DNA from: a virus
Virus record (IMG/VR): IMGVR_UViG_3300041955_001686
Coordinates: 1 to 29,239 of that record
Strand: one strand, 5' to 3'
DNA length: 29,239 nt
Positions 11,706 to 29,239 of the stretch are shown here, piece after piece. The notes beneath the pieces were generated by a model. The model was not told the origin of the DNA, ran no database searches, and saw only the letters and a list, made by a program, of their open reading frames with translations. A program made the position numbers and the translations under genes. The first letter of the stretch is position 1. Each line of letters starts with the position of its first letter.

Positions 11706-12461
11706 TTAACGAACGACGGTGTCGAAAGCGACGCCAAAAACACCAACAAACTCTATCGCGTCAGCGATCTGAGATTCGGATATGACGATCTCGCCGTCTC
11801 CCCCATGCGCAAGATGGTTGCGCCATCGTGCGAGATCTTTGAGGCGCTCTTTGGCCCGATCACCGGTAGCTCTCGCCCCTTTGGTGCCCAGTAGTGCTGT
11901 GATTTTGGCGTCCGCTCCGATCTTGTCCCACCATCCGCTGATGTCGAGATTGTCGAATGCTTTTTCCACAACAGAGGGATTCACCCCTGCGAGTGCGGAA
12001 CTGAAGGCTATGGCGTTGAGCCTGAACTTTCCACTCCCTCGCTTGCACGAAGCCAGGTTCTCGATCAGCTCTTCCACGTTGAGGGTCAAGTAATCCCGCG
12101 GCGTATCCAGGGTTGCGAGGAGCCTTCCAGTCAGAACGAGATTTCGATAGCCCAATGTGCCGGCAACGGTATCGTAGCTGGTAGCGTTGGCTGCCTTGTG
12201 ATCGACAATATGCGCGATGGTATTTCGCAAGTAGCGCTCAAGGGAGGCAAGGAGTCGGACGAGAAAGGGGCCGTAGACAGCCTCAGGGCTGCTCGGCCGA
12301 GAATTGATGAATCGCTTGGCAAGTTCAGTCTCCTCCCCTGCTGCCTGCCATTGGAGAACTTTCCCGACGCGCAGCCGGAGCTGTGACGCAAGACGAACGA
12401 ACTCTACGTCAGCCCTAAGCGCCTCGATCTGGGCCTGCAATTCCTGCAGCGGCGTTGGCAT
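11706..12461 (-). CDS. HEPN-domain protein (MAE_28990 / RiboL-PSP-like), partner of DUF262
   Basis: A 251-residue protein whose ATG lies 14 bases after the DUF262 stop, so the two form an operon. An amphipathic helix at the N-terminus leads into a helical body with 'YGPFLVRLLASLERYLRN' (residues 63-80). Near the C-terminus is 'RNHLAH' (214-219), a textbook Arg-X4-His HEPN motif with Asn after Arg and Gly after His. HEPN proteins of the MAE_28990 and related families are known to occur beside DUF262 genes in defence islands and are predicted RNases. It sits in a reverse-strand insertion between distal-tail and hub genes. The HEPN call is good. The exact subfamily and whether it cuts RNA are inference. 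Confidence 0.65.
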   Translation of the reverse strand: MPTPLQELQAQIEALRADVEFVRLASQLRLRVGKVLQWQAAGEETELAKRFINSRPSSPEAVYGPFLVRLLASLERYLRNTIAHIVDHKAANATSYDTVAGTLGYRNLVLTGRLLATLDTPRDYLTLNVEELIENLASCKRGSGKFRLNAIAFSSALAGVNPSVVEKAFDNLDISGWWDKIGADAKITALLGTKGARATGDRAKERLKDLARWRNHLAHGGDGEIVISESQIADAIEFVGVFGVAFDTVVR

Positions 12462-12475
12462 AGGAGTGCCGGTCT

Positions 12476-13630
12476 TTAAATAGCGTCCTCGATGGTCTTT
12501 GTGAGAAGGTCCATTCGTTTCTGCACCGCCTTCGCCGTGTTCGGTTTTCCAACGATGATCTCGAAGTTGGCCTCGTTCTTGAGAAGCCGCGCAGTCTTAT
12601 CGACGATTCGTGCCTTTGCTGAGGTTAGCTTGGTGCGGCTATCCCAAAGGCGGTCGAGCGCCACCATGACGCCGTCGTAAAGAGGTTGAGAAGTTTCGAA
12701 CTCCCCTTTCGCGTTCTCATACTTGAATGCACGCGCGCCGAAAATATCGTGAGCGAGCTTGAGGCGGGTCTTGAAGTCCTCGGTGAGAGCATTGATCTCA
12801 GGCTCCTTGGCCTCCATGTTTTCGATCATGCATCGATCCAGCATGCTGCGGATTGAACCCTTGATATTGCTGCGCTTTCGGAAGGCAAAGAACCGGAGAA
12901 CGAGTTCGCAATCTATCATTCGGCGATACAGAGGATTCGTACGCAGACTTTCGTCGACGTTGCCGTGCCGATCAACGTGCTGATCGTAGGGTGGAATGTC
13001 CCAGACAGATGTGAATAGGGGCTCATGGGAAAGAGCGATCAACATTTCGTTGAAACTTCCAGCGTATAGACAGTTCCGCAATTCTTGCGCATTCAAGTGC
13101 TGGCCGCCAGTGTTAAGACGCTCGAACACCAGCTTCCGAACATCTCCCTTATCCGGCCCGCCGTCAGTCGTGCCGCCGACTAGAAGGACAGTGACGGATA
13201 TTCGACGACGATCAAGGCCGCGCTGCAACGTCTCGGGAAGTTCGCCATAGCGCGAACCATTCAACTCGCTCCATTTTTCCAGGCCGCGAAGCGCGAAGCG
13301 ATTTGCGTAAAAATCAACGATGGAGTTGAGACGCTGCTGCCCGTCCATGACCTCATAGCGGCTCAGGTCCCACTCGTACAGGAAGACGGGCGGGATCGGC
13401 ACGTTCAACAAGAGCGACTCGATGAACAGGCTGCGCTTTTGATCGTCCCAAACCAAACGGCGCTGGTACTCGGGACGAAGATTGAGCCACTTCTTTTGCA
13501 GCACGAAGTCTTGAACCTGGGGCAAAAAAAAGTCGTTCCGCTCCTGATTTAGACGGAACGCCGTGTCGCTGAATTTCTGCTCCAGGTCCTTCGTTGTGGG
13601 TTTCTTGGTCTTTGATTTTGTCTGTGCCAT
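12476..13630 (-). CDS. DUF262 (ParB/Srx-fold, GmrSD N-terminal-like) protein
   Basis: A 384-residue protein from the ATG at 13630, preceded by AAGG seven bases upstream. A GTG at 13660 is in frame but has no ribosome-binding site. After a Lys/Thr-rich start comes the DUF262 core: 'RPEYQRRLVWDDQKRSLFIES' split over residues 52-72, 'LLLNVPIPPVFLYEW' (73-87), and the signature 'DGQQRLNSI' beginning at residue 96. In GmrSD-type enzymes this domain binds and hydrolyses NTP and pairs with an HNH (DUF1524) nuclease. No HNH motif is seen here, and the C-terminal ~250 residues are helical. The downstream HEPN gene may supply the effector. A 60-base sample (12781-12840) has 31 G+C, lower than the tail genes around it. 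Confidence 0.75.
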   Translation of the reverse strand: MAQTKSKTKKPTTKDLEQKFSDTAFRLNQERNDFFLPQVQDFVLQKKWLNLRPEYQRRLVWDDQKRSLFIESLLLNVPIPPVFLYEWDLSRYEVMDGQQRLNSIVDFYANRFALRGLEKWSELNGSRYGELPETLQRGLDRRRISVTVLLVGGTTDGGPDKGDVRKLVFERLNTGGQHLNAQELRNCLYAGSFNEMLIALSHEPLFTSVWDIPPYDQHVDRHGNVDESLRTNPLYRRMIDCELVLRFFAFRKRSNIKGSIRSMLDRCMIENMEAKEPEINALTEDFKTRLKLAHDIFGARAFKYENAKGEFETSQPLYDGVMVALDRLWDSRTKLTSAKARIVDKTARLLKNEANFEIIVGKPNTAKAVQKRMDLLTKTIEDAI

Positions 13631-13847
13631 TCTGGGCCTTGATCCCGCCGGAGCCGTCACGTTTCAGAACGGGGAGGTGCAGACGTACTGCATCGAGATC
13701 ATAAAGCATATTCTACAGCTTCAACAAGTTGGAGGCCCGCAGAGTTCTGAACGAAATGCCGGTCTCGGCAGCAGGCTCCAACTGCATTTTGAACGGGCCG
13801 TTCCAGTAAATCCGCGTTTGTCCGGCAGCCTCTAACACCCAACCTCC
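13631..13847. other. Intergenic gap between divergent DUF262 and hub genes
   Basis: These 217 bases should carry the promoter of the - strand DUF262-HEPN pair and any leader of the + strand hub gene. A short imperfect palindrome (CTTCAAC-AA-GTTGGAG, 13719-13734) sits near its middle, in an AT-richer patch (13700-13727). I cannot assign a convincing -35/-10 pair. No Shine-Dalgarno sequence precedes the hub ATG. The stretch 13713-13847 is also open on the - strand and reads oddly protein-like, see findings. Confidence 0.35.
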
Positions 13848-16800
13848 ATGCCAGACACCATCGGCCGCATCGCCGTCCCCACGGTAATCAACTCCGGCCA
13901 GACATTTCCGCTCACCACGCAGTACCCGTTCGGCTTCTCTGTCGAGCGCCCGGTGATCGTGCATCGCTTCGGCTCGCTCGACGCGAAGCAGGAGCAGCGG
14001 TATTACGTCGGCATCGGCCCGCGCAAGTTTCAGTTCAAGCACCCGAACCTGAACTGGGCCGAAGCCAATCAGCTCAAGGCGTTCTGGGAGTCGATGCAGG
14101 GGTCGTGGCAGGCGTTCACCTATACTGTCCCCAATCCTGACGGAACAACCACCGGCGTGCTGGTCACCTTCGAGCAGACGCCGATCTCGTTCGAGTACCT
14201 GCGTACCGCCGTACAGGTCGGACTGAACTTCATCGAGGTCGTCGATCCCACCCAGGCACCCAGCTACACGGTCAACTCCACCTGCTTGCGATTCCCCTCG
14301 ACCGCGCTGTCCACCGCCCTGCTTTCCGAAGTCCAGCAGATCGTCCCCCTTGTCCACATCCGCGTGCGCGAATCCGCGGTCGCCGACATCTACGTCTCCG
14401 ACCGTCGCGTCACGGTGGGCGGCCAGCTATACCTGCCGCGCCTGATCGGAATCGGCGAGCCTGGCTCCGACGTCCTGATTTCGCAGGACATCAAAGGCAC
14501 CTCCGATAACGTCCGCTTCACCTTCGGCAATGGCGACCGCGTGATGACGCAGCTCGCCAATGACACCGACCTGAAGTACGCCGAGATCGACCTATGCCTT
14601 TTCCATGTGAACTCCGGGATTCTGCTGCAACTGTGGAAAGGTGTCATCCAGAATTTCACGAGCGATGGAACGCCGATCTTCCCAGTCACCTGCTCGGACG
14701 GGTTCTTCCAGATCATGAACCAGTACCCCGAGCGGCAACTGAGCCGCCAGTGCTGGAAGAGCTACAACGATGGCGTGAACTGTCCGTGGGCCTCAAGGGG
14801 TCGCAGCGCAGCGGCGGTGACGGCGGCGGGCGGCGATCCCACAAGCTGCGACTATTACCTCGAATCGGCAAACGGCTGCCAGGTTCACGGCATGGCTCCC
14901 TATTTTGGCGGGCATCAGGCCGACCCGCAGGGCGTCGTCATCAAGGACGATTCCACCGGCTTCCTCGGCTTCGGCCGCAACACAGTAACCGCGACTTCGA
15001 TTGTTTCGGACACGATCTGGGGTCTGGCATTGCCCGAGATCTGGTGCAACAGCGGTGGGAACCCGCTGTTTGCTTTTCTGGCCACGGCCTTGATGGTGGA
15101 TTACCGCGACGAGTCTGGCTATGCCGACTCGCTCGGCATTCTCAGTGCCGGGCCTCTTGGTGGGTTCGCCGCGTCGATGGTCGTCACGAACGCCGACGGC
15201 TATCGATACGTGGTCGCACCCATGGTAGATGGCTACACCTGGCAAGGTCTGAAGGTTGACGGCAATCTGAACGTCACCAAGTACCAGCCGGGCATGGGGC
15301 TGCGCTACGTCACAGGCAGCGACCCAGCGAATTCGAGCACCGACTATTTCTCGCTCGGCCAGGGGTCGCCGCAGGTCTGGGAGCCGAATGTTTATGCGGC
15401 GGGCACGGCGGCGTGCGAGATCCGCATCGTCAAGTCCACCACGATTCAGCCGAGCACGCCCGACCAACATCAGATGACCGTCCCCATCGACTACGGGATG
15501 TGGGGCTGGACGTGGGATCAGAACGGCAACCGGACGGCGGTCAGAGGCCTCATCAATCCGTTCTGGATCGCCGTCAACATGCTGCTGCGGGCGATGGGTC
15601 TGTATGGCGATCCGTCCACCGGGTCAAATCCTGCCGGCGGAAGCGGTCCCACCTCGTTCGCGCAGCTCGCCACGTTCGTGCTGCCGTCCTTGATAGTGGG
15701 CGATGGAAGCGGCGCGGCCGAGATCGCGGCGGACCAGGTCGCGGCCATCCTCGGTAGCGGCGTTGAGACACAGTTCCAGTTCCAGGGAATCATCAGCAGC
15801 CAGAAGCCGTTCCGCGACTGGTTGACCGAGGTGCTCAACTGCTGCCTGGGCTTCTACACCTGGGAGTTCGGGAAGCTCAAGCTCGGATGCCGGATCAACG
15901 CCAGCGCGGTGGATGCTTACACCCTCGCCAACTCTCTGTTTCAAAGCCTGCGGCTGACGCCGATCCAAGCGGGCTTCGAGCACCTGGTGCTTTCGTTCGC
16001 CGACGTTGCATATCAATACCAAGCGAACACGGCAGAGTATTGCGACAAGAGCCACGCGGCGTACTACGGGCGCGGCGGATCTCCGCTCACCAGCCAGATG
16101 CACTCGGTGGGGTGCTCGTCGCTAAGCCAGGCCTTGCGGATCGCTGCCACTCGGACGCGCGAGGAGATCGGCGGCGTGAATCCCGCCGAGTGGCGCGATG
16201 CGCGCGCCGCCGCCTGGCAGACCACGCTGCTCGGCCTGGGTAACGAGGTCGGGCAGGTGGTCTCAATGACGCATCCCGACATCCCCGGACTTCATGGGAC
16301 CTGCAACGTCACTGGCACCTCGGTCACCTGGGCCAGCGGCGATGCGTTCGACACTTCCATGAATAACAAGGAGGTCCTGATTAACGGCGTGCAGGTCTTG
16401 ATCACGGGCTACACGACGGACCCGACCTACCACACCGTGACCGGCTTGCTCCTGGCTGCGGCGCCGGGCAACGGAACCAATCTTCCGTTCCAAATTGTGA
16501 CGATGTCCTTCAGGATTCAGCGATGGAGCCTGAAGAAGGACTGGTCGGTGCAGATCGAGGGCCAGACCGTCACGGATTCCATGTACGACCTGGACGTCGG
16601 GCCGAAGCCGATGGATGTGGTGCCTGCACCTCTGCCGCCGCTGTTCTATCCGATTCCGCTCGGGCCGGCGTGGGCACCGTACCAGGTGCAGGCGCCGACG
16701 AACGACGCTCTGTTTCCGGGCGAGTGGACCTTCGATACCAATCAGTCCTACGCACAGATGGCTGACGGCAGCATGCTCGCGAACCTGGTGGTGACCGGGA

Positions 16801-18266
16801 AGCTGCCGGTGAACGAGTTCAGCGCCACTGGCGCGGGTGCGCCCGGAATTGGATCGATCTCACAGTCCACGACGGGCGGATCGTTGCCGGCCAACGTGAC
16901 GCTGCGCGTGGCCATCTGCGCCATCGATTCAAGTGGGCTTCCTTCGGCCCCGTCGAATATCGCCATCATCGGAACCTCGGCCTCTGGAACGGACACGTTC
17001 ACTTTGGAAGGCATCACCTGGCCGGCGGTCGCGGGCCTCGTTTCCTACGTGCTGTTCGTCGCGACGCAGGACGACTTGATCTGCGCGCAAGCCACCGGAA
17101 CGTTGACAGCGGGTGCGGGCAATACATACACTCCGGGATCGATCTCGTTCGGCGGACCGCTGGTACGCTCGACGTGGGCACTGCCGTCTCCGTATGGCAG
17201 CAAGGTCCGGCTGAAGGCCAAGCAGTTGATCCACGGCGGGGTCATCGGCGGGTCCATCGATAGCGTGTCCACCGGCACGCTGGTCACAGGAAGTCTACAG
17301 GGAGCGCCGCCATCCACGAATCCATCGTGGACGCCGGTGGGCCGCATCGTCTCGATCATCGGCAGGCCGGAAGGCGCCACGCCCTACTTCAGCACGAAGG
17401 TAACGTCATGGGACCAGACCACCGGCACCATCGGCGTTACTCCCGATCCCAACGGCATAGTCCAGGAGGGCGATTGCTTCGTTCTGCGGTTCAACGCCGA
17501 TGCTTCGAACACCGCAACCCCTACATCGATCACGGATTCCGGCTGCCAGAACAACGTCTACCCCAACGGCATGACGCCCGGCGCGGAGGTCGGGAACCTG
17601 GTCCGCGTGATTCAGGGCGTCTCGCGCGGGACACCGCCGCGGAAGATCGTCTCCAACACCGCGACCACCATCACGTGGGACCTCCCCATGGTCATCAACC
17701 CCGGCGACGTGTGGATCATCGAGGAACCGACGTGGCCGTACTCCTGCGACACCACCTCGCTCGACAACGGCAACCCGCTGGCGGTGACGACGATCAACAT
17801 GCCCACCAGCAATTTCGTCGATGAGACGCTAGTGATCGCGGGCTTCACGGTGGACGTGAATGGCAACGAATCGCCCGACGGCGACGCGCCGATCCGCGAG
17901 GACTGGGTGTTCGGAGCTGAAGGCCTGTCGAAAGTCGCCGGCCTGGTGTTCCAGATGCAGGGCACGCTCGGCGTGGAATCCAACGCCGCGCAACCGCTGT
18001 ATTTGAATCGCCCGGTCACTGTCGGCGATGTGAAGGGCTATGTGCAAGCCGCCCCGACCGGTTCCGGGATCACGTTCACGATCTACGTGGGCACCACTGC
18101 GTGGTTGACCTTGACCATTCCCGCCGGCCAGACCGTGGTGGTCGCCACGCCGTCTCAGATCAGCGCCCTGTCGCAGATCCCGTCCAATACGGCGGTCTCG
18201 GTCGGCATCACGGCGGTTGGGACCACATTTCCGGGAGCGAACCTCTCGCTGTTCATCTACTCGTGA
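13848..18266 (+). CDS. Giant tail hub protein: DUF2460-like + DUF2163/gpL-like + hub body + fibre-like C-terminus
   Basis: 1472 residues; ATG 13848 is the first start after an in-frame TAA at 13833. Residues about 30-135 repeat the pattern of the distal-tail protein (see 11129). Residues about 150-360 look like DUF2163/gpL-type hub sequence. They contain four cysteines, C302, C312, C334 and C344, followed by 'HGMAPYFGGH'. In lambda gpL, four cysteines in the equivalent domain bind a [4Fe-4S] cluster. The central part to about 905 resembles the hub body that forms the tube-end platform. Residues about 1008-1088 resemble a fibronectin-III module ('AICAIDSSGLPSAPSN'), and the end is beta-rich fibre-like. 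It thus joins what are often three or four genes. No peptidase motif (NlpC/P60) is seen. Function: tail tip platform and receptor-facing structure. Confidence 0.75.
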   Translation: MPDTIGRIAVPTVINSGQTFPLTTQYPFGFSVERPVIVHRFGSLDAKQEQRYYVGIGPRKFQFKHPNLNWAEANQLKAFWESMQGSWQAFTYTVPNPDGTTTGVLVTFEQTPISFEYLRTAVQVGLNFIEVVDPTQAPSYTVNSTCLRFPSTALSTALLSEVQQIVPLVHIRVRESAVADIYVSDRRVTVGGQLYLPRLIGIGEPGSDVLISQDIKGTSDNVRFTFGNGDRVMTQLANDTDLKYAEIDLCLFHVNSGILLQLWKGVIQNFTSDGTPIFPVTCSDGFFQIMNQYPERQLSRQCWKSYNDGVNCPWASRGRSAAAVTAAGGDPTSCDYYLESANGCQVHGMAPYFGGHQADPQGVVIKDDSTGFLGFGRNTVTATSIVSDTIWGLALPEIWCNSGGNPLFAFLATALMVDYRDESGYADSLGILSAGPLGGFAASMVVTNADGYRYVVAPMVDGYTWQGLKVDGNLNVTKYQPGMGLRYVTGSDPANSSTDYFSLGQGSPQVWEPNVYAAGTAACEIRIVKSTTIQPSTPDQHQMTVPIDYGMWGWTWDQNGNRTAVRGLINPFWIAVNMLLRAMGLYGDPSTGSNPAGGSGPTSFAQLATFVLPSLIVGDGSGAAEIAADQVAAILGSGVETQFQFQGIISSQKPFRDWLTEVLNCCLGFYTWEFGKLKLGCRINASAVDAYTLANSLFQSLRLTPIQAGFEHLVLSFADVAYQYQANTAEYCDKSHAAYYGRGGSPLTSQMHSVGCSSLSQALRIAATRTREEIGGVNPAEWRDARAAAWQTTLLGLGNEVGQVVSMTHPDIPGLHGTCNVTGTSVTWASGDAFDTSMNNKEVLINGVQVLITGYTTDPTYHTVTGLLLAAAPGNGTNLPFQIVTMSFRIQRWSLKKDWSVQIEGQTVTDSMYDLDVGPKPMDVVPAPLPPLFYPIPLGPAWAPYQVQAPTNDALFPGEWTFDTNQSYAQMADGSMLANLVVTGKLPVNEFSATGAGAPGIGSISQSTTGGSLPANVTLRVAICAIDSSGLPSAPSNIAIIGTSASGTDTFTLEGITWPAVAGLVSYVLFVATQDDLICAQATGTLTAGAGNTYTPGSISFGGPLVRSTWALPSPYGSKVRLKAKQLIHGGVIGGSIDSVSTGTLVTGSLQGAPPSTNPSWTPVGRIVSIIGRPEGATPYFSTKVTSWDQTTGTIGVTPDPNGIVQEGDCFVLRFNADASNTATPTSITDSGCQNNVYPNGMTPGAEVGNLVRVIQGVSRGTPPRKIVSNTATTITWDLPMVINPGDVWIIEEPTWPYSCDTTSLDNGNPLAVTTINMPTSNFVDETLVIAGFTVDVNGNESPDGDAPIREDWVFGAEGLSKVAGLVFQMQGTLGVESNAAQPLYLNRPVTVGDVKGYVQAAPTGSGITFTIYVGTTAWLTLTIPAGQTVVVATPSQISALSQIPSNTAVSVGITAVGTTFPGANLSLFIYS

Positions 18267-18351: not shown

Positions 18352-19614
18352 TCACCGCGATTCGCGCATGCGCTGGATTTGTTCCTCGGAAAACCGCAGC
18401 CACTTCCCTTTCTTCGTGTGCACGCTGCGCTCCAGCTTTACATAGTTGACCCGGTCAATATTGCGTTCATCGTGCGTCTGCAGATCAGGAGATTCCGATA
18501 GTTGTTTGATTTCTTCGAGAAGGCGTTTTTCCTCTTCGGGGTCGCGCTCGCGCTTTGGCTGCTCTTTGATCGCACGCCACGGCGGAAGATACTTATCCCA
18601 CATTCGGGTTACCAAGAAACCCGTGTCTTCCGGTGGAAAGGCCGCAAAGTTAATGAGGCCGGTTCTCAGCACTTCGTCCGGCAGCGCCGAGTAGAGCGCG
18701 TTCAGCTTCTTCAGATCTTCCTTAAAGTCGATTCCGTTGACGAAATCCTGCATCGGGCCAAGGAACAGCGGCACGATCTGGGCGTGGAAATTGTCTTTCG
18801 ACGTGAATACGGAGCAGAACGGCAGGTAATAAAGATACGCCAGATCCACGTGATGGCTTGGCTTGACATTGCGCAGCAACTGCGTCGGCAGAACGAGGCA
18901 GAAGAAAATGTTGATCGTCAGCATGAAGATGAAGTAGGGCACATGCTCGCGCAGCGGCGGCCGGCGACGCGCTATCCAATCCTGGATCACCCAATCCGCC
19001 GCTTCCGGGACACCCAGCAGATTAAGACCGAAGCGCAGCAGCCATTCCGGGTCCATGTTATCGATGATCGTGTCGGCGATCTGCTTCGCGTCTTCCAGCG
19101 TCTTCGGCTTGCGCCAGTGCCCCAGCTCGCCCATCACGGCCCTCACCATTGCATCGAAATCGACGCTTGTCAGGGACTTGCGCCATTGCTTAGCCATGTT
19201 GCGCTCGACTTCCAAAAACTCCCGTTTCGTCCAGCGCTCCAGCGCTTCCGCCTCGGGGCTTTGCCTGAACACAAACCCTTTCTTGTCGCCAAGCTGGACC
19301 GGCTCGCCGCCGGCGAGCATGACGCGGCCGTAGACTGTGCTGAGGTCGAACTGGCGGCTCAGTTCGGCGTTAAGTATGGTCATGTGATGGACGTTGGGAT
19401 AGGACTGTGATTCCGGCGTCCTATCCGCCAGTGATCCTACGAGCTGCTCCGGCGTGCTCTTGCTGCGGATGGTTTTTTCGAGGTCGGCCAGGCATTCCAC
19501 GAAGAACAGCGGCGTGATCGTAGACATGTAGAAGTTGTCCATGAGGACCGCCTCATCGAGGTTCAGGCTTTCCAGCGACGATTTGTCGAAAATCAGCGAT
19601 GGTCCCTGGGCCAT
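18352..19614 (-). CDS. PIN-like domain protein (predicted RNase, cargo)
   Basis: A 420-residue protein, - strand, between hub and tail-fibre genes. It begins 'LIFDKSSLESL' (Asp10), has 'ITPLFFVECLADL' (Glu40), and later 'HVDLAYLYYLPFC' (Asp257) with 'FTSKDNFH' (Asp274). The order Asp, Glu, Asp, Asp, each at the end of a hydrophobic strand, is the arrangement of PIN-fold nucleases, here with a large insert of about 200 residues. A very hydrophobic stretch (227-243) could be a buried helix or a membrane segment. The C-terminus (350-420) is charged and helical. A 60-base sample (18781-18840) has 29 G+C, well below the tail genes on both sides. No antitoxin gene is adjacent. The PIN assignment is my inference from spacing of acidic residues. 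Confidence 0.5.
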   Translation of the reverse strand: MAQGPSLIFDKSSLESLNLDEAVLMDNFYMSTITPLFFVECLADLEKTIRSKSTPEQLVGSLADRTPESQSYPNVHHMTILNAELSRQFDLSTVYGRVMLAGGEPVQLGDKKGFVFRQSPEAEALERWTKREFLEVERNMAKQWRKSLTSVDFDAMVRAVMGELGHWRKPKTLEDAKQIADTIIDNMDPEWLLRFGLNLLGVPEAADWVIQDWIARRRPPLREHVPYFIFMLTINIFFCLVLPTQLLRNVKPSHHVDLAYLYYLPFCSVFTSKDNFHAQIVPLFLGPMQDFVNGIDFKEDLKKLNALYSALPDEVLRTGLINFAAFPPEDTGFLVTRMWDKYLPPWRAIKEQPKRERDPEEEKRLLEEIKQLSESPDLQTHDERNIDRVNYVKLERSVHTKKGKWLRFSEEQIQRMRESR

Positions 19615-19720: not shown

Positions 19721-22700
19721 ATGGACCAAATCTACAAACTACAACCGCATCGCACGATGCACCTCCAGGGCTTTGACGACTACGGCGCGGCGGCTGCGCT
19801 GTGGGGCGCGTCGGACACCGGGTTCACCGTCTCCGGCGTCTTCCGCGATATGGCGGATTTCGCCGTGCTGGTCCTGTTCCAGAAGGACGATCCATTCGGG
19901 CACCCGCTGTTCTCGTATCTTCCCGACGGCGATCTCACGGGCCTCGTTCTCGATTTCGACGTCACCTGGCAGGGCATTCAGTCCTGGGAGTCGCTAAAGA
20001 ACGCCTGGACGGACTGGAACACGCTCGACTGCACCGTGAACGGCGTGGGTCAGAAGGTACCGTGGTTCGGCACGTCCGGTATCACGGTCACCTGCAACAC
20101 GACTGGCCGTACCGGCGCGTCGGCGACGTTCACGCTCAACCTGAACAGCCCGCAGCCGGGCGACAAGGTCACGCTCTGGTATCAGAATCAATCCTTCATC
20201 AGCCCGGCTATTTCCGCGTCGCACGCGACCACCGACCAAGCCATGTGGTGGCAGGGCAACGCCGCATATAACCACTCGGTCATCATCGGGTCGGCCACGT
20301 ACTCTTGCCTGGAGGATTCGCTGAACAGCGCGGGGGTGGCGAACAATATCGCCGGCCAAATCAACGCGTCCGATCCGAATTGCACGGCCACCACGGGCGG
20401 GACGTATGGCAACGAGATCTTCATCACATTGAAAGCCGGTGTGGCGGGGCCGATTGGGGTTTCGAGTTCCGATGGATCGGCCGCGGACACGCTGTCACAG
20501 GTCAGCGCCGCCACGATCTTGCAGTCCATCGCCCAGCAGATCAACGACGTCAATTGGGTGCAGAACGGCCCCGCAGTGCTCGCCGCCGCCGTGGTGTCGC
20601 CGAACCAGTTGGTGATTACGGCCACGCCGGGCGCCGACGGCAACATGGTGGCGTTCTACCAAACGGACAACAACAGCAGCAGCCGGCTGTACTTCACCGC
20701 AACCAACTGGAACCTGTCCGGCGGCTCTTCGGACAACGTGTCCTGGCACGTTCACATCGACTTCACGGCGCTCGGTTGGAGCAGCGTGGACAAGGTTTGG
20801 TGGACCATCGCGCCCGCGCTCCCGAACAGCCAGGCATATCAGTCAACCGAGTGGCAGATGGTCGTCACCAACTGGACGGTGACCAGCAGCCCGGCGACCA
20901 AGCGCGCGCTCAAGGTGGCTGGACCCGGGTCGGTCCGGATCGAAGAGGACAGCACGTGGGTCAACACCACCGGGTATTGGGAGGCCGCGCCAGGCAACGA
21001 CCCGGTGAACGGCGCGTTCGCCTTCTGGAGCCAGGGACGGGCGATCCGGGCGGCGGCTTCCGGTGCCAGCGTCACTATTGAGACGCATTGTCAGTACACG
21101 CACGATATCTATGTCGGCACACGCCTCGATACCACCTGCGGCATCGTGAGCGCCACGTTGGACGGCGGCGCGCCGGTAACGCTCGACTGCTACTATCCCG
21201 CGGCCACCACGTCGCAGACGCGGCGATTGCTGTTCTCCGGCGTCGCGGCGGGGCAGCACAAGGTGGTGATCACGCTCTCGGGCAATAAGAATGCGTCGAG
21301 CCAAGGCTGGTATTTCTATTTCGATTTCCTCGAATGTGCGGTGAAGAGCGACGTGCCGGGTCCGGTCGCGACGACCACCGCCGTGGGCGTGGCGACCGAT
21401 TTCGATACGGACAATACGTACAAGCTGTCGCCGGAGCGGCTGGTATGGAACGTTCAAAAGCTCGGACTGTTGGGCGAGATAGACCACTACTGCGGCGTCT
21501 TCTGGTGGAAGCAGGCGGTGGCGGCAAATCCGTCTTACCCGCAATGCACCGTCACGTTCTCTGGCAATTGGAACGACCAGGATGTCGTCTGGCTGCACAT
21601 TGGCGGCTCCGCGATCGGCAAAACGGTGTTCGGCGGGCAAGACAGCAGCAATACCATCGCGCGGCACTTTGCCAACTTCATCAACGCGATCTTCGATGGC
21701 GTCTGGGCATCGGCCACGGGCGGCGTCCTCACGATCACATCCCATTCGTTCGGCAGCGTGTGGCAGTACCACGTGTACACGGCACTGCCCAACTCGAACA
21801 CCGGCAGCGGTCACGCCACGGTGACCGGGGACCTCCAGGGTGGAACATACGGTGTGACATGGGTGATCGACCCGACCCAGACGCCGGTGCTCAACCGGGC
21901 ATTCCGCGACTGGACCACGGATTTCTTCAACCAGCTCAAGGCGAACAACTTGAGCGCCGTCTGCTCGTTTTCGCAGGAGCTAGTGCAGCCGCCGGACAAT
22001 CCTGCCGGTGGAGCCGTGTGGGTTCAACGCTTCCCCGACGGTACGGCAGTTGAAACCGCCACCGGCTTTGGGACCCTGAATAGTTCGCAGATCGCCTTCA
22101 GCTCCGGGCCGCAGAGCTACACGGCGCAGGCGCACGCCGCGATGGCAGGCTTGATGCTAGCTGCGGGGCTGACGCCCAAACTCCAGTTTGGTGAAATCCT
22201 CTGGTGGTTCCAGGCGAACGCTTCGGGCATGGCGTTTTACGATGCTGACACCCAGGCCGCAGCGCAGTCGGCGCTCGGCCGCGCGCTGGCCACTTTTCAC
22301 GCGCCGAACGACGACCCGTCGGTCAACAGCTACGCCGACGCGAACTTCCTGCGGACGCGCCTGTACAACTATGTGGCCGCGATCCAGAGCTACGTCCAAT
22401 CGCAGTGCGCGTCGGTCGTCTTCGAACTGCTGTGGCCGATGGACGTAAACGACCCGGACAACTGCAAGCTGCTGCGGTACATCAACCTGCCGTCGCAGTG
22501 GACGACACGCTCTGGCTCCGGCTTCGACACCTTCCTCATCGAGGGCTACCAATATCCGGGCATCAACCACAACCTGGATCAAGCGAGCCGATGCGCGCAG
22601 TATCCGTGGAAGGAACTCGCCTGGGACCAGGCCCACTGCCGTTACCTGATGGGCCTCTATTACGGCACGTGGCCGTGGATGCGGGAGTTCGTGAACGCCA

Positions 22701-22807
22701 GCCGCCTCGGGCTTCCGGCCATCAAACTCTGGGCCTACGACCATCTGTGCCTATTCGGATGGCCGGTGCCGTTGCCCACGAGCGACGACCGCTCGTTTAT
22801 TTACTGA
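19721..22807 (+). CDS. Large tail protein with C-terminal glycosidase-like barrel
   Basis: 1028 residues, ATG 19721, first + strand gene after the PIN-like insertion. Residues 1-690 are beta-rich, with Thr/Ser/Asn/Gly-rich blocks and repeated 'W' strands, like tail fibre or carbohydrate-binding modules. Residues about 690-1028 change character: alternating strands and helices with Glu at strand ends, 'LQFGEILWWF' (E825), 'VVFELLWPMD' (E902) and 'FLIEGYQYP' (E941). This is the look of a (beta/alpha)8 glycoside hydrolase, as in the barrel domain of gene-transfer-agent host-specificity proteins. E825 is a candidate acid/base, and E902 or E941 a candidate nucleophile. It likely degrades or binds cell-surface glycan. 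The gene is complete; the catalytic roles are inference. Confidence 0.6.
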   Translation: MDQIYKLQPHRTMHLQGFDDYGAAAALWGASDTGFTVSGVFRDMADFAVLVLFQKDDPFGHPLFSYLPDGDLTGLVLDFDVTWQGIQSWESLKNAWTDWNTLDCTVNGVGQKVPWFGTSGITVTCNTTGRTGASATFTLNLNSPQPGDKVTLWYQNQSFISPAISASHATTDQAMWWQGNAAYNHSVIIGSATYSCLEDSLNSAGVANNIAGQINASDPNCTATTGGTYGNEIFITLKAGVAGPIGVSSSDGSAADTLSQVSAATILQSIAQQINDVNWVQNGPAVLAAAVVSPNQLVITATPGADGNMVAFYQTDNNSSSRLYFTATNWNLSGGSSDNVSWHVHIDFTALGWSSVDKVWWTIAPALPNSQAYQSTEWQMVVTNWTVTSSPATKRALKVAGPGSVRIEEDSTWVNTTGYWEAAPGNDPVNGAFAFWSQGRAIRAAASGASVTIETHCQYTHDIYVGTRLDTTCGIVSATLDGGAPVTLDCYYPAATTSQTRRLLFSGVAAGQHKVVITLSGNKNASSQGWYFYFDFLECAVKSDVPGPVATTTAVGVATDFDTDNTYKLSPERLVWNVQKLGLLGEIDHYCGVFWWKQAVAANPSYPQCTVTFSGNWNDQDVVWLHIGGSAIGKTVFGGQDSSNTIARHFANFINAIFDGVWASATGGVLTITSHSFGSVWQYHVYTALPNSNTGSGHATVTGDLQGGTYGVTWVIDPTQTPVLNRAFRDWTTDFFNQLKANNLSAVCSFSQELVQPPDNPAGGAVWVQRFPDGTAVETATGFGTLNSSQIAFSSGPQSYTAQAHAAMAGLMLAAGLTPKLQFGEILWWFQANASGMAFYDADTQAAAQSALGRALATFHAPNDDPSVNSYADANFLRTRLYNYVAAIQSYVQSQCASVVFELLWPMDVNDPDNCKLLRYINLPSQWTTRSGSGFDTFLIEGYQYPGINHNLDQASRCAQYPWKELAWDQAHCRYLMGLYYGTWPWMREFVNASRLGLPAIKLWAYDHLCLFGWPVPLPTSDDRSFIY

Positions 22808-22873: not shown

Positions 22874-23401
22874 TTAGACGGCCACATCGAAGAGCAATCT
22901 TGAGATCTCGGGAATCTGAATCCCTATGTGGTTGGCTTGCTGCATTTTGACCTTCCTAAATCCACGTCTATCAGAGGCCGGGAACCGATCCAGTGGTGGC
23001 AGCGGAGAACCAAGAAGATAGTAACTGGCTGGCTCCAACGTCTCCTGGGAGTAGAGCATCCAGGCGACACACCCTCCAGGAAGTCTCCAAATGGTCTCCG
23101 CAATGTCGTAAGGAGTGTTGGGCGGGCTTCCAGACCTTGTCTTCATTTGCAGATGCCGCGTCGTGCTCGCTACAGAGAGAACGAGGTCAAATCCAAACAT
23201 GTCGACCTCAGCCCTTAGGATGTTCAGCAGACGAGGGGGTTTGCGCGTGACAAGGTGCCGCGCAAGCTCGAATAAGAAGCGGTGCTCTTGGATATTCTCG
23301 AAAAAGCGGGAGTTTTGGGCGATGAAGTCGGGACTTGGCATAGTCGGTTTATCAAAACTCGCCGGCACGGTTGAGGCGTACGGGCCAATCGAATCAATCA
23401 T
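22874..23401 (-). CDS. Small PD-(D/E)XK-like protein
   Basis: A 175-residue protein (155 if the Met at residue 21 is the start; neither start has a clear ribosome-binding site). The core reads 'RAEVDMFGFDLVLSV' (64-77) followed by 'RHLQMKTRSG' (82-91). An acidic residue before a Gly/Phe, an Asp entering a strand (D72), then a strand ending Gln-X-Lys (Q85, K87), is the pattern of PD-(D/E)XK nuclease folds, including DUF4365-type proteins. A helix with conserved-looking hydrophobics precedes it. It is 125 bases downstream of the UvrD-like gene on the same strand and may be its third operon member, or a last piece of prophage cargo. A 60-base sample (22921-22980) has 30 G+C. Nuclease activity is inferred. 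Confidence 0.5.
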   Translation of the reverse strand: MIDSIGPYASTVPASFDKPTMPSPDFIAQNSRFFENIQEHRFLFELARHLVTRKPPRLLNILRAEVDMFGFDLVLSVASTTRHLQMKTRSGSPPNTPYDIAETIWRLPGGCVAWMLYSQETLEPASYYLLGSPLPPLDRFPASDRRGFRKVKMQQANHIGIQIPEISRLLFDVAV

Positions 23402-23477
23402 ATAGGATCGTGAGTGCTCTCGACCAGGTGGGGTACGCGCGGAGAGGTAGTTGGAACCATGGTTTCCGGGGGGAGCC

Positions 23478-23517
23478 AGCCTGCGCGCAGACCCGCGCCC
23501 AGGCTTTCAAACTGGGC
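23478..23517. repeat. Overlapping palindromes downstream of the UvrD-like gene
   Basis: Two stems share bases and cannot form together. AGCCTGCGCGC (23478-23488) pairs with GCGCCCAGGCT (23495-23505) with one mismatch and a 6-base loop. GCCCAG (23497-23502) pairs with CTGGGC (23512-23517). They lie 10-50 bases past the UvrD-like stop on the - strand, ahead of the nuclease-like gene. This could be a processive terminator, an attenuator or a REP-like palindromic repeat. No T tract follows on either strand. Confidence 0.4.
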
Positions 23518-23526
23518 CCGCCTTTG

Positions 23527-25629
23527 TCATAGAAACGGACTCGCCTGGCCATAGCCGGTGATGGTTGCCGAGCGCCGGGCGCGAGTCAGCGCCACGTAGA
23601 GCAGGGATCGCTCCCCGGTTTCGGCGTCGCGCCGCGCCACCGTGTCTTCCGCGTCAACGACTGCGGCCTTTAGTGGGAGGATGCCCTCGTTCGCAGCGAC
23701 TACGATGATGTGCTCGAACTCAAGCCCTTTGACCCGGTGCATGGTGGCGACACGGATACCTGGCTTGTCCCGCTGCTCGGCTGCATTTCGCTTAATCTCG
23801 TACGCACCAAACCCGGCGGCCTGCAACTGGGAGATGTAGCCTTCCACGAGGCGCTTGGTTCGCGCCACCACGCAAACAGATTCCAGCGGCGCACCGTCCT
23901 TCTGGATCTCCCCAATGTGCTGTTTCAGGAAAGCGACTTCCTCGGCAAAGGTGCCGAAGCTCCGGACCAACGGAGGCCGACCATGGGTCAAAGAGACGTA
24001 GCCCTTCTGCTGGTCCATTCCACCATCCAGGTCGTCGATCTCGCGACCCTCCAGGAGCGCAACTGCAAACCGGCGAGTCTCATCGGTGGTGCGGTAGTTG
24101 ATCTTGAGCTTCTTGCCGCGGCCCTTGATGTTGATCCCGCACTGGCCTAGCGAGACGCGATGGCGGTAAATCCGCTGGTGCGCATCGCCGACGATGAACA
24201 AGTCGTTGGTCCCTTCCGGCACAATCGCCCGCATCAAGCGGAACGCCTCGGCGCTCATATCCTGAGCCTCATCGACGATCACCGCCCGATAGGGCAGGGA
24301 GATTCCCTTGCTCTGGATCAGGCCGCGGGCGTCGCGCAGAAGATCGATGTACTCCTTCTTCCCCTGTTCGTTGAGTTGGGCCCGGTACTCCTGAAAGACA
24401 GGCCAGATCCGTTTCTTGGCGTCGCGGCCCAGTTTTGTTCCACGGCCAATGCGGGACGCCTTGAGGTACTGATCAGCGTCTGTGATGTTCTGTGCCTGAA
24501 CGACCTGTTCCCACTCGGAGCGATAAAAGTTCGGAGCGAGCCCGAGATCGGACGGAGCTTGGTTGAGGGCGTAGGCCCATGCCTCGTTTTCGTCTTCATC
24601 GAAGACGACCTGATGCCGGTATCCCTGCCCGCGCAGGAAATTCGCCACCCAGGCATCCAGGTTCACGACGTCAATGCGTGAGAGTGCGTCAACCGAGCAG
24701 AGCTTGCGTAGATTCTCCTGGATATCCGTGGCCAGGTTGCGTGTGAATGTCGTGAACAGTATGCGGTCCTCCTTCTTGTTGAAGACCTCCTCGGCGAGAT
24801 AGCGGGCGCGGTGCATCGCGACCACCGTTTTGCCCGTACCGGCACCGCCGAGAACGCGGACAGGTCCGTTGGCCTGCATCGAAACAAGTTTCCGCTGCTT
24901 CGGATGGAGGAAAACGCGCCATTGGTCGAGCGGAGCGTTCAGCACCTCGGCCAAATCCTTGGCCTCGTCGACCACGTAGAACCGCCGCTTGGAGTCCTCG
25001 TTTTGCAGAGCGGCCACGAAATCCTTCTGATCGACCGGAACTTCCTCTTCCGGTTTCTCCATCTCGCGAAAGACGTCGTCCAAGCTGAAGCCGGAGGCGA
25101 GCATGAATAGTGCTTCGTAGGCCTCCTGCGGAAGCCGTCTCTCCGCAGCCTCCAACTCAGCGTCTGAGTTGATGCCTCGCACAACGCCGATCAGTTCTTC
25201 CGGCACCCCCAAGCGCAATAGTTGCTTGTCCTTGATCTCAGAGAATAGCCCCGTCTTGGCAGCGGCGGGAGCAGGCGCGGCCGGAGGCGCCTCCTGAGGT
25301 TCCGCACTGAGCATCTGTAATGCGCCAGTGGCCGGATGCACGACAAATTGCTTCCGTTCTGCCCAACGGTAGGCTTCGTCGTGGTGATCCACCCATGACA
25401 GAACGTAGACCTGCGAATTCGAAGGATGGAAGACTACGGCTCGATACGCCTGGTTGATGCGCACAGAATAGAGATCCTTGCCCTTGGCGCTCTGGATCAC
25501 CTCGTAGTTCAACCCCGGCGCATCGGGCCGCTCGCGGAAACGTTCGATGAACTCCCGCACTTGCTTCTGGTGGCTCTTCTGGACGTTCGAGAAGGCCAGC
25601 AGAAAATCACTGGAAAGGGCAATCGTCAT
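23527..25629 (-). CDS. Superfamily 1 (UvrD/Rep-like) helicase with N-terminal RelE/ParE-like domain
   Basis: 700 residues; its ATG overlaps the stop of the upstream helicase (ATGA), so the two are translationally coupled. Helicase motifs: Walker A 'GGAGTGKT' (261-268), Walker B 'IVDEAQD' (451-457), 'GDAHQ' (481-485), 'NYRT' (511-514), motif V around 'ATMHRVKGLEFEH' (628-640), motif VI 'YVALTRAR' (678-685). This is a complete ATP-dependent 3'-5' DNA translocase core. Residues 1-100 resemble a RelE/ParE toxin fold: a helix pair, then 'LYSVRINQAYRAVVF' and 'VYVLSWVDHHDEAYRWA'. In that family the domain cleaves mRNA or poisons gyrase. Here, fused to a helicase, it may serve as a sensor or a nucleic-acid-binding arm. 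Residues about 110-235 are an Ala/Pro/Glu-rich linker and a helical domain. Probably a defence or DNA-repair function. Confidence 0.8.
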   Translation of the reverse strand: MTIALSSDFLLAFSNVQKSHQKQVREFIERFRERPDAPGLNYEVIQSAKGKDLYSVRINQAYRAVVFHPSNSQVYVLSWVDHHDEAYRWAERKQFVVHPATGALQMLSAEPQEAPPAAPAPAAAKTGLFSEIKDKQLLRLGVPEELIGVVRGINSDAELEAAERRLPQEAYEALFMLASGFSLDDVFREMEKPEEEVPVDQKDFVAALQNEDSKRRFYVVDEAKDLAEVLNAPLDQWRVFLHPKQRKLVSMQANGPVRVLGGAGTGKTVVAMHRARYLAEEVFNKKEDRILFTTFTRNLATDIQENLRKLCSVDALSRIDVVNLDAWVANFLRGQGYRHQVVFDEDENEAWAYALNQAPSDLGLAPNFYRSEWEQVVQAQNITDADQYLKASRIGRGTKLGRDAKKRIWPVFQEYRAQLNEQGKKEYIDLLRDARGLIQSKGISLPYRAVIVDEAQDMSAEAFRLMRAIVPEGTNDLFIVGDAHQRIYRHRVSLGQCGINIKGRGKKLKINYRTTDETRRFAVALLEGREIDDLDGGMDQQKGYVSLTHGRPPLVRSFGTFAEEVAFLKQHIGEIQKDGAPLESVCVVARTKRLVEGYISQLQAAGFGAYEIKRNAAEQRDKPGIRVATMHRVKGLEFEHIIVVAANEGILPLKAAVVDAEDTVARRDAETGERSLLYVALTRARRSATITGYGQASPFL

Positions 25630-28600
25630 TCGGCAACCTCATCGGGCAATAGATCCAGCAGCGCCTCCGGTGTACTCAGTACGGCATCGGCAAAGAACAC
25701 CCGCCAACCTGCGCTCTCGAAGCAGCACACGCCGTCAGCTTCATGTTCCAGCAGAACGGCAAGGCGGCAAACGGGCCATGCGAGTTCAGCAGCGGCAATA
25801 ATCTCGCCTTCCTCGCTGGTCAACTCAAACCCTGCCTCCGGTAAAGCCTTGCCGCGCTCGGCAGCCCTGCGGCAAAGATCGTGCATCTCTGGAGCCACGA
25901 GTTCCATAAGCGCGGCGAGCTGGTCAGGGACTACACCCTCGTGCGGCCGGCGCGCGGGCTCGAAGATCGGCGCGTAGACTTCGCCGTTCAGGCCGAGCGA
26001 ACTGACGAAGTCGAAATGATCGAGGAACTGTAATAGATTGCCCAGCCGGAGGAATTCACGCCAGGCTCTTTTCCACTCGACCGGTCCGTGATGGGCATAA
26101 TCGTCGAACAGACAGAGGCGCACGTTGAGATTGGCGAAGTCGCGCGCCTGCAAGGCCGCGGAATCCATTCCGCCCTCAGCTTGGAGCAACGGGCTCCCGT
26201 CAGAGTGGGTCCGCTGCCAGTGGAGCCGCAGACGGCCAGGAGTGTCGCGATCATTCTCCAGCAGACTCACCACAAAAGACTGCGCATAGGTCGGCCAGGA
26301 TCTGGATCGCCCGGCCCCGAGCAGGAGCATGAGAATCCCAAAGGACGACAAGCCGCCAAGGCTCTTCCAATTGCCTGTATTTGCCGGGTCGAGTTTGGCG
26401 AGTAGAGCACCGAGCTTCGCTCCAGGAGACAGAAGTTCCGCCTCAAATCGGGGCACTGGGGTTTTGAACTGCTCTTGTACGTCGTCCCATGTCAGCGACC
26501 AGACGCGAAATCTCCCCGAACGCATGAGCGCCATTCGCTGGGCGGTGTCCGTGCCCACGCGAAGGCCTGAGTTCGGATCGGCATGGTACTCGTAACCATC
26601 CGTGAAGACGGCGATAGGCAGGTCGCTCCCCTCTGGGCGCTCAGGATAGAAAACAAAATCAACGCGGCTTGGAACAGCCACCCCCTGTGCCAAGCCAACG
26701 TCCACCTGCGGTTCAATCAGATAATTCCCAAATTCCGACCGCAGGTAGAAGCCTTCTTTGCCGTTCACCACATGATGCGTGACACTACGCGGCGGCTCGC
26801 CTTCCGGGGTTCGGCGCAGAGCCTCGATGAAACGGCCCTCCAACTCACTTTCCAGCAACCGGTTGATACGGATGGCATCCAGCCGGTCGGTTCGCTTCAA
26901 GTGCTGCCGGTTGTCGAGGATCAGCTTCAACAATTCGAGGGCTGCCTGCCGGGATGTGTTTTGCTGGTCGTGCCGCCCCCGGTATGCGAGGAGGCAGCGA
27001 TAGCAGCCGTCCTTCTCCGGGTCGTTCTGGCAGATGCAATTCTTAAGGACGTCGTGGGCTAGCTCGAACACTTCCAGGAGGCTCTGTTGGTCACGCATCA
27101 ACTCCTTCAGGTAGCCGGTTCCTCCTGGCACACCGTCATAGAGCACGAGATACCGCTTGCGCACGTCGGAACCAGGCACCGGTTCATCCATCACGGTTGT
27201 AAGGAGGTGGCCGGGATCACCTCGGAACTTCTTCCTGAGACCCAAATCGAGCGCCGCGACAAAGGAGTGGATGTTGCGCTCCACGTCGAAACTCGCCACG
27301 GGGAGCAGCATGCGGATGGCCTCCGATGTGAATTCCCGGTAGAGGAAGCATGCCTCGATGACCTTTTCTTTCTCTTCCTTGCCCCAATAGCGGCAGTAAA
27401 TGGCATGCTCGATTTTGCCGTTCTTCTTGACCTTTCCGCATGCGCCGCACAACTCGAAGGGTCTGTCTACCACTGATCGCCCGGCGATGGTCAGTTGCGG
27501 GCCGCCGGCCATCTTCTCGCCGAAGTTCACTTCCCGCAGTTTGATCTTGCGGAAAAACTCGAACCCGAATGGCACCTCTTCGCGGTCAATAAAGTAAGCC
27601 TCGCTGATGTCGGCGTCTTCCTTCACCACGAACATGTTCTTCTGATAGAACTGCGGCTCGCGGTCGTCGCTCTCGTCGTAGGAGCGGCTCTCCTGCTCCG
27701 AGGACGTCGAAATGACCTGCCGCATCCGCAGCATGTTACGCCGCTGTCCTTCATCGGCCCAAAGCGGATTGTCGCAGCGAGGGCACGAGGCCCGAGGCTC
27801 CGACCGCCCCTCCAGTTCCAGGTAGGAGCAGTCGCTGCAGAACCGCCACGCCTCGATTTGAGAAACTTGGAGGTTCACCTGGTCGACTTCCAGCTTGCGG
27901 CCTTCGGCATAGAAGTGGTTCGCCGGCGCCAACTCCAGGATCGCGGCCGACGCCGGGCGCTCATACTCATAAGTCCGCGTCTTGTATTTCCGCTCGTCAT
28001 CTTCAGCTTTCGGATTCCGCCGATAGATGACCGACCTCAGGATGACGCCAGCTTCCGGGAAAGCATAGTTGGGCAATAACCCCTCGTCGGTGAAGAAATT
28101 CAGGACCTGCCGTTCGTTCATGGACCGGACGATTTCATTCATCGCTGCCTTCTCGCGCAGCAGTTGTTGAAGCGTGTCCTCGAAGTTCTGATCGCGTGCC
28201 GGGTCCTGCTTCACGTCGCGGATTCTCTTGGTGAGAGCCTGAATCCGGCTGCGCAGTGCTTTCCGTTCCGCGGCCAACTCCTCCAGGCCTCCCCAGATCG
28301 AACGTTCCAGGCCCGTGATGTCGAGGTCCGTTCCGCGCGAGAAGGCCCGAATCCTCTCGCGGGTGTAATCGGCGACCTCCTTCTCGAACAGGGCGAGGAA
28401 GCCATCCTCCATCGCTGTGCGGTTCTGCTCAAAGAAGGCAAGCAAGTTCGCGGGGAACCCCTTGGTCCGGTTGCCGCTCTCGACCACATCCAGCACTGCT
28501 CGCAATTCGTCCGGGAGCGCGCCCTCCGGCACACCCGTCTCTACCCAACGATCAAACACGTAAGCTGTTAACTGCCGCTCCAGCACTGCGGACGCGTTCA

Positions 28601-29239
28601 AGAAGCAGCCAGGCGTTTCCACGCGCCCCTGGATCATCTCTTCCGGCTCGAAGTAGAAGAACAGGTCGTGTGGCCGTGCGTTGGCCACAGTCAGTACAAA
28701 GGAATTACCGTCTACCCGCCCGGCGCGGCCCACCCTCTGCAGATAATTGCTTGGCTTCGGCGGAACCGAACAGAGTGCAATCGACGAGAGATCGCCGATG
28801 TTGATCCCCATTTCCAAGGTCGGCGTGCAGGAGAGCAAGTTCGGATCGCCGGGCATGCGCTCTTTGTCCTCGCGACGGAATCCATCTTCCACGCGTTCCC
28901 GCGTCTCGCGGTCAAGAAGACCCGTGTGCTCCTCCGAGAAGATTCGCTGCACGTCGCCCGATTCGTACAACCGGCGGTAGTAGTCTTCTTTATCAGGAGC
29001 CCGCTCGAAGTGCCCGTCGCAGTTGTACCGCATGCAGTGGTTGCCTTCAAACGTTTCGGCATCGTCCGGACCAACGGAAACAGCGTAGCTGCAGTACTTG
29101 CAGCGGAACTGAATCACGCCAGTTGTGACCTGAAAAGCACGCGGCTCCAGACCCCAAACACGCGCGCCCTTTGCATTGCGTTCAAAGACGAGTCCCGACT
29201 CCTTGAGCCCGCTCAACACGGTCTCGTAGATCGCCTGCG
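25626..29239 (-). CDS. DUF1998-type superfamily 2 helicase with nuclease-like domain, DruE/DISARM-like (5' partial)
   Basis: The frame stays open to the right edge, so the N-terminus, including RecA1 with Walker A/B, is missing. Numbering from the GTG at 29219: a cysteine cluster (40-67, 'CKYC', 'CMRYNC'), motif V 'SCTPTLEMGINIGDL' (130-144) and motif VI 'QRVGRAGR' (161-168). Next come a long coiled-coil region, a zinc ribbon ('CSDC' and 'CPRC'), another Cys pair ('CGAC'), and the DUF1998 signature 'CICQNDPEKDGCYRC' near 730. Then a PD-(D/E)XK/DUF559-like segment near 850-905 ('RVDFVFY', 'AVFTDGYEYHAD', 'GRFRVWSL'). DUF1998 helicases occur in DISARM (split between DrmA and DrmB) and Druantia (DruE, single large protein). 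The one-piece layout resembles DruE. It is predicted to be a DNA translocase acting against foreign DNA. The stop TGA overlaps the next gene's ATG. Confidence 0.75.
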   Translation of the reverse strand, partial: QAIYETVLSGLKESGLVFERNAKGARVWGLEPRAFQVTTGVIQFRCKYCSYAVSVGPDDAETFEGNHCMRYNCDGHFERAPDKEDYYRRLYESGDVQRIFSEEHTGLLDRETRERVEDGFRREDKERMPGDPNLLSCTPTLEMGINIGDLSSIALCSVPPKPSNYLQRVGRAGRVDGNSFVLTVANARPHDLFFYFEPEEMIQGRVETPGCFLNASAVLERQLTAYVFDRWVETGVPEGALPDELRAVLDVVESGNRTKGFPANLLAFFEQNRTAMEDGFLALFEKEVADYTRERIRAFSRGTDLDITGLERSIWGGLEELAAERKALRSRIQALTKRIRDVKQDPARDQNFEDTLQQLLREKAAMNEIVRSMNERQVLNFFTDEGLLPNYAFPEAGVILRSVIYRRNPKAEDDERKYKTRTYEYERPASAAILELAPANHFYAEGRKLEVDQVNLQVSQIEAWRFCSDCSYLELEGRSEPRASCPRCDNPLWADEGQRRNMLRMRQVISTSSEQESRSYDESDDREPQFYQKNMFVVKEDADISEAYFIDREEVPFGFEFFRKIKLREVNFGEKMAGGPQLTIAGRSVVDRPFELCGACGKVKKNGKIEHAIYCRYWGKEEKEKVIEACFLYREFTSEAIRMLLPVASFDVERNIHSFVAALDLGLRKKFRGDPGHLLTTVMDEPVPGSDVRKRYLVLYDGVPGGTGYLKELMRDQQSLLEVFELAHDVLKNCICQNDPEKDGCYRCLLAYRGRHDQQNTSRQAALELLKLILDNRQHLKRTDRLDAIRINRLLESELEGRFIEALRRTPEGEPPRSVTHHVVNGKEGFYLRSEFGNYLIEPQVDVGLAQGVAVPSRVDFVFYPERPEGSDLPIAVFTDGYEYHADPNSGLRVGTDTAQRMALMRSGRFRVWSLTWDDVQEQFKTPVPRFEAELLSPGAKLGALLAKLDPANTGNWKSLGGLSSFGILMLLLGAGRSRSWPTYAQSFVVSLLENDRDTPGRLRLHWQRTHSDGSPLLQAEGGMDSAALQARDFANLNVRLCLFDDYAHHGPVEWKRAWREFLRLGNLLQFLDHFDFVSSLGLNGEVYAPIFEPARRPHEGVVPDQLAALMELVAPEMHDLCRRAAERGKALPEAGFELTSEEGEIIAAAELAWPVCRLAVLLEHEADGVCCFESAGWRVFFADAVLSTPEALLDLLPDEVAE

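Follow-up and report, generated by a model that had tools for sequence, protein, structure and literature searches.

The DNA analysed here, called the window throughout, is the whole of the linear viral contig IMGVR_UViG_3300041955_001686 (29239 bases). Phage structural genes, among them a head closure gene, lie within positions 337–22807 and are all on the plus strand, and the defence-type genes are all on the minus strand, at 22874–29237 (Table 1). An initial annotation of the sequence had proposed a three-gene defence operon at this end, consisting of a DUF1998 helicase, a RelE-fused UvrD helicase and a small nuclease-like protein. The coordinates it gave all agree with those found here, except that the first of its genes, the helicase, extends past the window.

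Table 1. Positions of the features discussed, in the window unless an L number (our locus label) is given
Feature	Position	Strand	Basis
Major capsid protein	337..1350	+	phrog_1005 E 2.6e-80; Phage_cap_E
Tape measure protein	7210..11124	+	phrog_12506
HEPN (RiboL-PSP) and DUF262/GmrSD_N proteins, first tail-gene gap	11706..13660	-	HEPN E 3.3e-12; DUF262/GmrSD_N E 4.3e-26
Tail-tip (central fibre J-like) protein	13848..18266	+	42% identity to sister-contig protein matching phrog_31
420-aa protein, second tail-gene gap	18352..19614	-
TIM-barrel-type distal tail protein, convergent to the operon	19721..22807	+	phrog_6040; 35% identity to sister TIM-barrel tail-sheath-like protein
Operon slot	22874..29239	-
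175-aa PD-(D/E)XK-like protein	22874..23401	-	D-G-D-L...R-H-x-Q-x-K motif conserved in 7 sequences
armD, 700 aa, RelE-fold domain and UvrD/GajB-like SF1 helicase	23527..25629	-	Pfam, PADLOC, Foldseek
armC, C-terminal 1203 of ~2090 aa, cut by contig end	25626..29237	-	Pfam Helicase_C and MZB; sister gene; tree
ArmC C-terminal domain	25638..25928
Sister contig, first tail-gene gap, 239 aa	L014:15784..16503
Sister contig, second tail-gene gap, 190 and 380 aa	L014:10131..11842
Sister contig, operon slot	L014:2..3741
ZorE with the ArmC C-terminal domain	L131:33278..34381
Other loci listed with this domain	L083:3080..3370; L096:3254..3535; L128:8735..9907; L130:18567..19787

A second viral contig, IMGVR_UViG_3300032893_003192 (39,015 bases; L002, L003, L013, L014), is referred to here as the sister contig. 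The two contigs share ~5.7 kb (window positions 23505–29238) at 95.2% identity, and the similarity ends 22 bases beyond the armD stop.

The armC reading frame is open up to the contig end; the earlier proposal had placed the right part of the locus outside the window. The gene does not truly begin at the GTG at 29219, since the sister gene starts 886 codons further upstream. The full-length sister ArmC is 2089 aa, is 97% identical to the window protein, and carries DEAD, Helicase_C and MZB in a single polypeptide. MZB is the current Pfam name for the DUF1998 zinc domain. The window fragment matches Helicase_C and MZB and belongs to the YprA family. The reading of a defence operon with a DUF1998 helicase at its centre is correct. 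The parts of ArmC that lie in the window are the second helicase (RecA2) domain, zinc clusters, MZB/DUF1998, a Vsr-like nuclease motif and a C-terminal domain. Among 52 homologues the cysteines C467/C470/C485/C488, C597/C600/C615 and C734/C736/C745/C748 are conserved, and D860, D880, G881, H885, D897 and R901 are invariant and form a D...DG...H...D...R motif. With Foldseek the whole 429-aa ArmC tail gave no significant match and the Vsr fold was not confirmed, and therefore the nuclease assignment rests on the motif and on Bell et al. (2025; PMC12458937).

ArmD shows a UvrD-helicase match (E 1.2e-28) and a weak HigB/RelE match at the N-terminus (Pfam). A model of the N-terminal 240 aa, built with 33 aligned homologues (pLDDT 89), matches the YoeB/RelE/YafQ toxins (Foldseek; best E 3.2e-4, probability 1.00), and the RelE-UvrD fusion proposed initially is thereby upheld. 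Walker A K267 and Walker B D453 are conserved, and the helicase core resembles Gabija GajB (PADLOC).

The armC stop and the armD start overlap as ATGA (gaATGAcg), so the coupling of the two helicase genes is also as first described. A search with an ArmD profile collected 80 genome loci, 76 of which have at least 1 kb of upstream sequence. ArmC is adjacent or at the same locus in 75 of these 76, which shows the wide conservation of the helicase pair that the initial annotation had singled out for checking, and the commonest armC-armD junction is a 4-base overlap. Comparison of the window with the sister contig gives Ka/Ks values of 0.06 for ArmC and 0.03 for ArmD, which indicates that both are under strong purifying constraint. 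With the pairing kept in nearly all loci and Ka/Ks this low, the association is not due to chance.

A four-gene system with these components has been published as a preprint, with experimental tests, under the name ARMADA Type II (Bell et al., September 2025; PMC12458937). In that work it consists of a BrxHII/SNF2 helicase, a PglX-like methyltransferase, a YprA helicase-nuclease and a RelE-UvrD helicase. The loci tested there were those of Escherichia coli NCTC 12900 and ATCC 8739; all four proteins were required, and protection was direct and non-abortive (PMC12458937). The window genes are almost certainly the armC-armD (3′) end of such an operon. The window ends within armC, so that armA, armB and the N-terminus of ArmC would lie beyond the contig end; the sister contig holds armA-B-C-D in the canonical order on one strand, with the RelE-UvrD gene last. 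Its ArmA is a 964-aa SNF2/BrxHII/DrmD-like helicase (DrmD E 2.6e-92, BrxHII E 2.7e-60) and its ArmB a 1523-aa methyltransferase (PADLOC; type IIG E 5.5e-260, DrmMI E 1.6e-61). Identities to the ATCC 8739 proteins are 49% (ArmA), 50% (ArmB), 41% (ArmC) and 50% (ArmD). Bell et al. mutated eight catalytic residues of E. coli ARMADA II, which proved either essential or contributory (PMC12458937); all eight are conserved in the sister operon, and the two in ArmD also in the window. It should be pointed out that the numbering of these residues is that of NCTC 12900; it was carried over unchanged to ATCC 8739, and every residue there lies within the motif expected for it.

A maximum-likelihood tree of ArmC (30 proteins, 682 columns, over the region shared with the window) places the window protein inside a 22-member ARMADA II group with the ATCC 8739 ArmC, with support of 100/100. 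Four proteins that have the gene order of Type I branch outside this group, as do two DruE, which are the only Druantia references in the tree and both Druantia III-like. The closest relatives of the window ArmC are chromosomal proteins of Solibacteraceae and other Acidobacteriota.

The likeness to ARMADA Type II thus covers the four genes, their order and strand (in the sister contig), the ArmC clade, the RelE-UvrD fusion and the tested residues, with the tested proteins 41–50% identical to those of the sister operon; the difference is that the operon here is probably in a tailed phage beside tail genes, and not in a chromosome, plasmid or satellite-like element. ARMADA Type I differs in having a separate ArmC clade, a YprA gene that is usually first, and no RelE-UvrD (PMC12458937). 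Gabija shares the UvrD-type helicase core of GajB; in ArmD, by contrast, this core has an N-terminal RelE fusion and the neighbour is ArmC, and no GajA match was found among the neighbouring proteins scanned.

The locus might also be looked at as a variant of Druantia or DISARM. In PADLOC the ArmC fragment matches DruE1 best (E 1.7e-53), and ArmA and ArmB match DISARM DrmD and DrmMI. The DruE1 label, however, stems from PADLOC 2.0 (2023) being older than ARMADA. DruE is a YprA-family helicase with an MZB domain, as is ArmC, but it lies outside the ARMADA II clade, with a split between ArmC and the Druantia III DruE of 100/100 in the tree, as the placement suggested at the outset shows when run with two DruE. 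DruE also has a PLD nuclease in place of Vsr, and its partner DruH is absent here (PMC12458937). DISARM class 1 has an SNF2 helicase (DrmD) and an adenine methyltransferase (DrmMI) related to ArmA and ArmB, but its DrmA and DrmB are separate genes and its DrmC is a PLD nuclease; here the helicase and DUF1998 module form one fused polypeptide and RelE-UvrD is last. A complete DISARM or Druantia set upstream would have told against the initial reading. In the sister contig the upstream genes are armB and armA, with none of DruA-D, F, G, H or M. Membership of either system was therefore rejected on the fused polypeptide, the upstream ArmA and ArmB, and the tree position, and this alternative is most improbable. 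The suggestion of a distinct or variant anti-phage system holds in part: the genes belong to a defence operon that is neither DISARM nor Druantia, but it is one already described as ARMADA II.

The third gene starts 125 bases after armD on the same strand. Residues D67, G70, D72, R82, H83, Q85 and K87 are invariant in its product and six plasmid relatives. This motif fits PD-(D/E)XK of the QxK type, and the product is probably a genuine PD-(D/E)XK-like protein. Comparison with family libraries and solved structures gave no significant match; in a profile search of solved structures the one nuclease match was weak (2ost, E 0.17). A distinct three-gene system with this small protein as effector would account for the strand, the short distance and the motif. 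However, the gene has no homologue in the sister contig or at the other ARMADA loci examined, its plasmid relatives occupy unrelated contexts, and a nuclease motif is already present in ArmC, all of which makes such a system very unlikely. No relative was found in viral contigs either. Since the other ARMADA loci examined lack a homologue, the gene is best regarded as a neighbour and not an ARMADA component. What was annotated as a three-gene system is thus the armC-armD end of a four-gene operon; the small nuclease-like gene is present as described, but it is not an operon member.

Notable is the genomic setting, on which the initial annotation, made without knowing that the DNA is viral, did not comment. 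In the sister contig the gene order is two tyrosine recombinases, a primase, small and unassigned genes, and then armA-B-C-D. Beyond armD, and convergent to it, the genes are, in order, those for a tail fibre, a TIM-barrel tail protein and a tail tip, a 133-aa gene, and one that is tape-measure-like. The window repeats this tail order with proteins that are 35–42% identical, and its operon is at the same convergent position. Because similarity ends so close to the armD stop, a nearly identical ARMADA module is present in two divergent phages. The window contig itself ends inside armC, and therefore the place of its operon inside a phage is taken from synteny.

ARMADA II also stands among phage genes in at least three further viral contigs. 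One of these (L005/L016/L017) has terminase and capsid genes; in L099 the translations read as replication proteins of the SSB and primase kind; and in L100 a gene for a phage tail protein converges on armD. Among named phages (50,697 records) there is no full-length ArmD, and the distal tail protein of the window has no relative among named phages. No report of ARMADA in tailed phages was found in the literature searched, a search that had most subscription journals outside its reach.

On these comparisons of gene content and order, the ARMADA II operon would be cargo of a temperate tailed phage, kept because the lysogen is protected from competing phages; we put the probability of this reading at about 0.8. 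The host of the carrier phage is probably in the Acidobacteriota. Against the reading, a cargo of 16 kb is large for a tailed phage, and the prophages could be defective. A host-borne ARMADA II might instead abut the end of a prophage, with the viral-contig caller having cut too wide. The window stops inside armC with its far side unseen, chromosomes and plasmids often carry ARMADA II, and the closest relatives are chromosomal, all of which fit a host location. Such an arrangement is nevertheless unlikely: the sister operon is flanked by recombinase and primase genes at one end and by tail genes at the other, two divergent phage contigs have the operon, with 95% identity, in the same convergent place, and in both contigs the corresponding gaps in the tail-gene region are occupied by other opposite-strand genes.

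These gaps extend the phage-cargo reading. The first, between the small gene and the tail tip, holds the HEPN and DUF262 genes in the window and a gene for a 239-aa protein in the sister; the second, between the tail tip and the TIM-barrel gene, holds one gene in the window and two in the sister, again all on the opposite strand. The HEPN and DUF262/GmrSD_N pair in the tail module is probably another defence cargo. The 95% identity of the ARMADA DNA set against 35–42% for the tail proteins, together with the different genes in matching gaps, inclines us to think that in this tailed temperate phage lineage the tail-gene gaps serve as fixed slots in which defence cargo is placed on the opposite strand. 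A complete 16-kb ARMADA II, swapped as a module between divergent phages, would be the largest such cargo. ARMADA II itself is already known; what is added here is the tailed-phage home and the probable modular exchange. A system known from chromosomes and satellite-like elements is thereby extended to tailed phages with their own structural genes, which suggests that phages use a 16-kb helicase-nuclease system in conflict with one another.

A mechanism can be proposed, the details of which we consider evenly balanced between right and wrong. ArmB, a PglX-like predicted methyltransferase, would mark host and prophage DNA or read its modification state, and the ArmA SNF2/BrxHII motor together with ArmC might survey incoming DNA by translocating and opening it. 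DruE, a related helicase-nuclease, loads on 3′ ssDNA tails (PMC13192584). ArmC might load on phage DNA that is unmodified or contains ssDNA, unwind it and cleave it through the putative Vsr-like nuclease, and ArmD would extend the unwinding. The RelE domain of ArmD could either cut translated mRNA or act as a binding module. A prophage whose DNA is marked by the ArmB that it encodes would be spared self-attack and exclude competitors. The strong purifying selection on the phage-borne armC-armD pair offers a cheap comparative test of ARMADA, as do the armB-armC gap, which sometimes holds Zorya II or Druantia genes, and the C-terminal domain that ArmC has in common with ZorE.

With respect to distribution, E. 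coli plasmids carry the same four genes, and cyanobacterial and alphaproteobacterial plasmids carry at least the methyltransferase-helicase-UvrD part, with a further helicase upstream where visible. In E. coli ATCC 8739 the set adjoins Druantia III and Zorya II. A contig from a metagenome-assembled genome titled Methanococcoides (L027) carries ARMADA II; Bell et al. (PMC12458937) describe Type II as absent from archaea, and the archaeal label may be a case of mis-binning.

The armB-armC junction is a hot spot for cargo, with other genes there in 17 of 46 loci (examples are L022, L037, L040, L044, L061, L075, L083, L086, L092 and L096). Absence of armB upstream of armC in these 17 was considered and rejected, as in most of those checked armB is further upstream beyond the cargo genes, at roughly 3–14 kb in several. 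The cargo includes ZorA-ZorB-ZorE (L083), DruE (L061), TmtA-like proteins, HEC-01A-like ATPases and AbiEii.

The C-terminal domain of ArmC also ends type II ZorE (ATCC 8739, E 8e-18) and is found at the C-terminus of HATPase-DUF3883 proteins. Bell et al. consider the late ArmC domains to be inactivated nucleases, and the available text of their preprint has no mention of a domain common to ArmC and ZorE (PMC12458937). The shared domain may help explain why both systems travel together. Docking of the domain on ArmD was also considered. The idea came from L088:3056–12115, where a 377-aa nuclease-like gene is followed by one for a HATPase-DUF3883 protein of 1623 aa, which carries the ArmC C-terminal domain, and then by a RelE-UvrD gene. 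It is weakened in that one of the nine gammaproteobacterial genomes that have the domain carries it on ZorE without ArmD, and a 1856-aa case proved to be a truncated ArmC. The L088 locus has no ArmA-C in view and is possibly a separate system.

A second class of RelE-UvrD proteins, 31–35% identical to ArmD, is present in viral contigs (L101–L121, e.g. L102:734–9730). Several of these genes come after those for a ResIII helicase and a Type III methyltransferase and after a small gene that weakly resembles GIY-YIG, and some of the loci have a DUF262/GmrSD gene nearby. In a Tsukamurella plasmid locus (L132:7980–18173) the YprA helicase is annotated as two genes, with two consecutive UvrD-helicase genes downstream.
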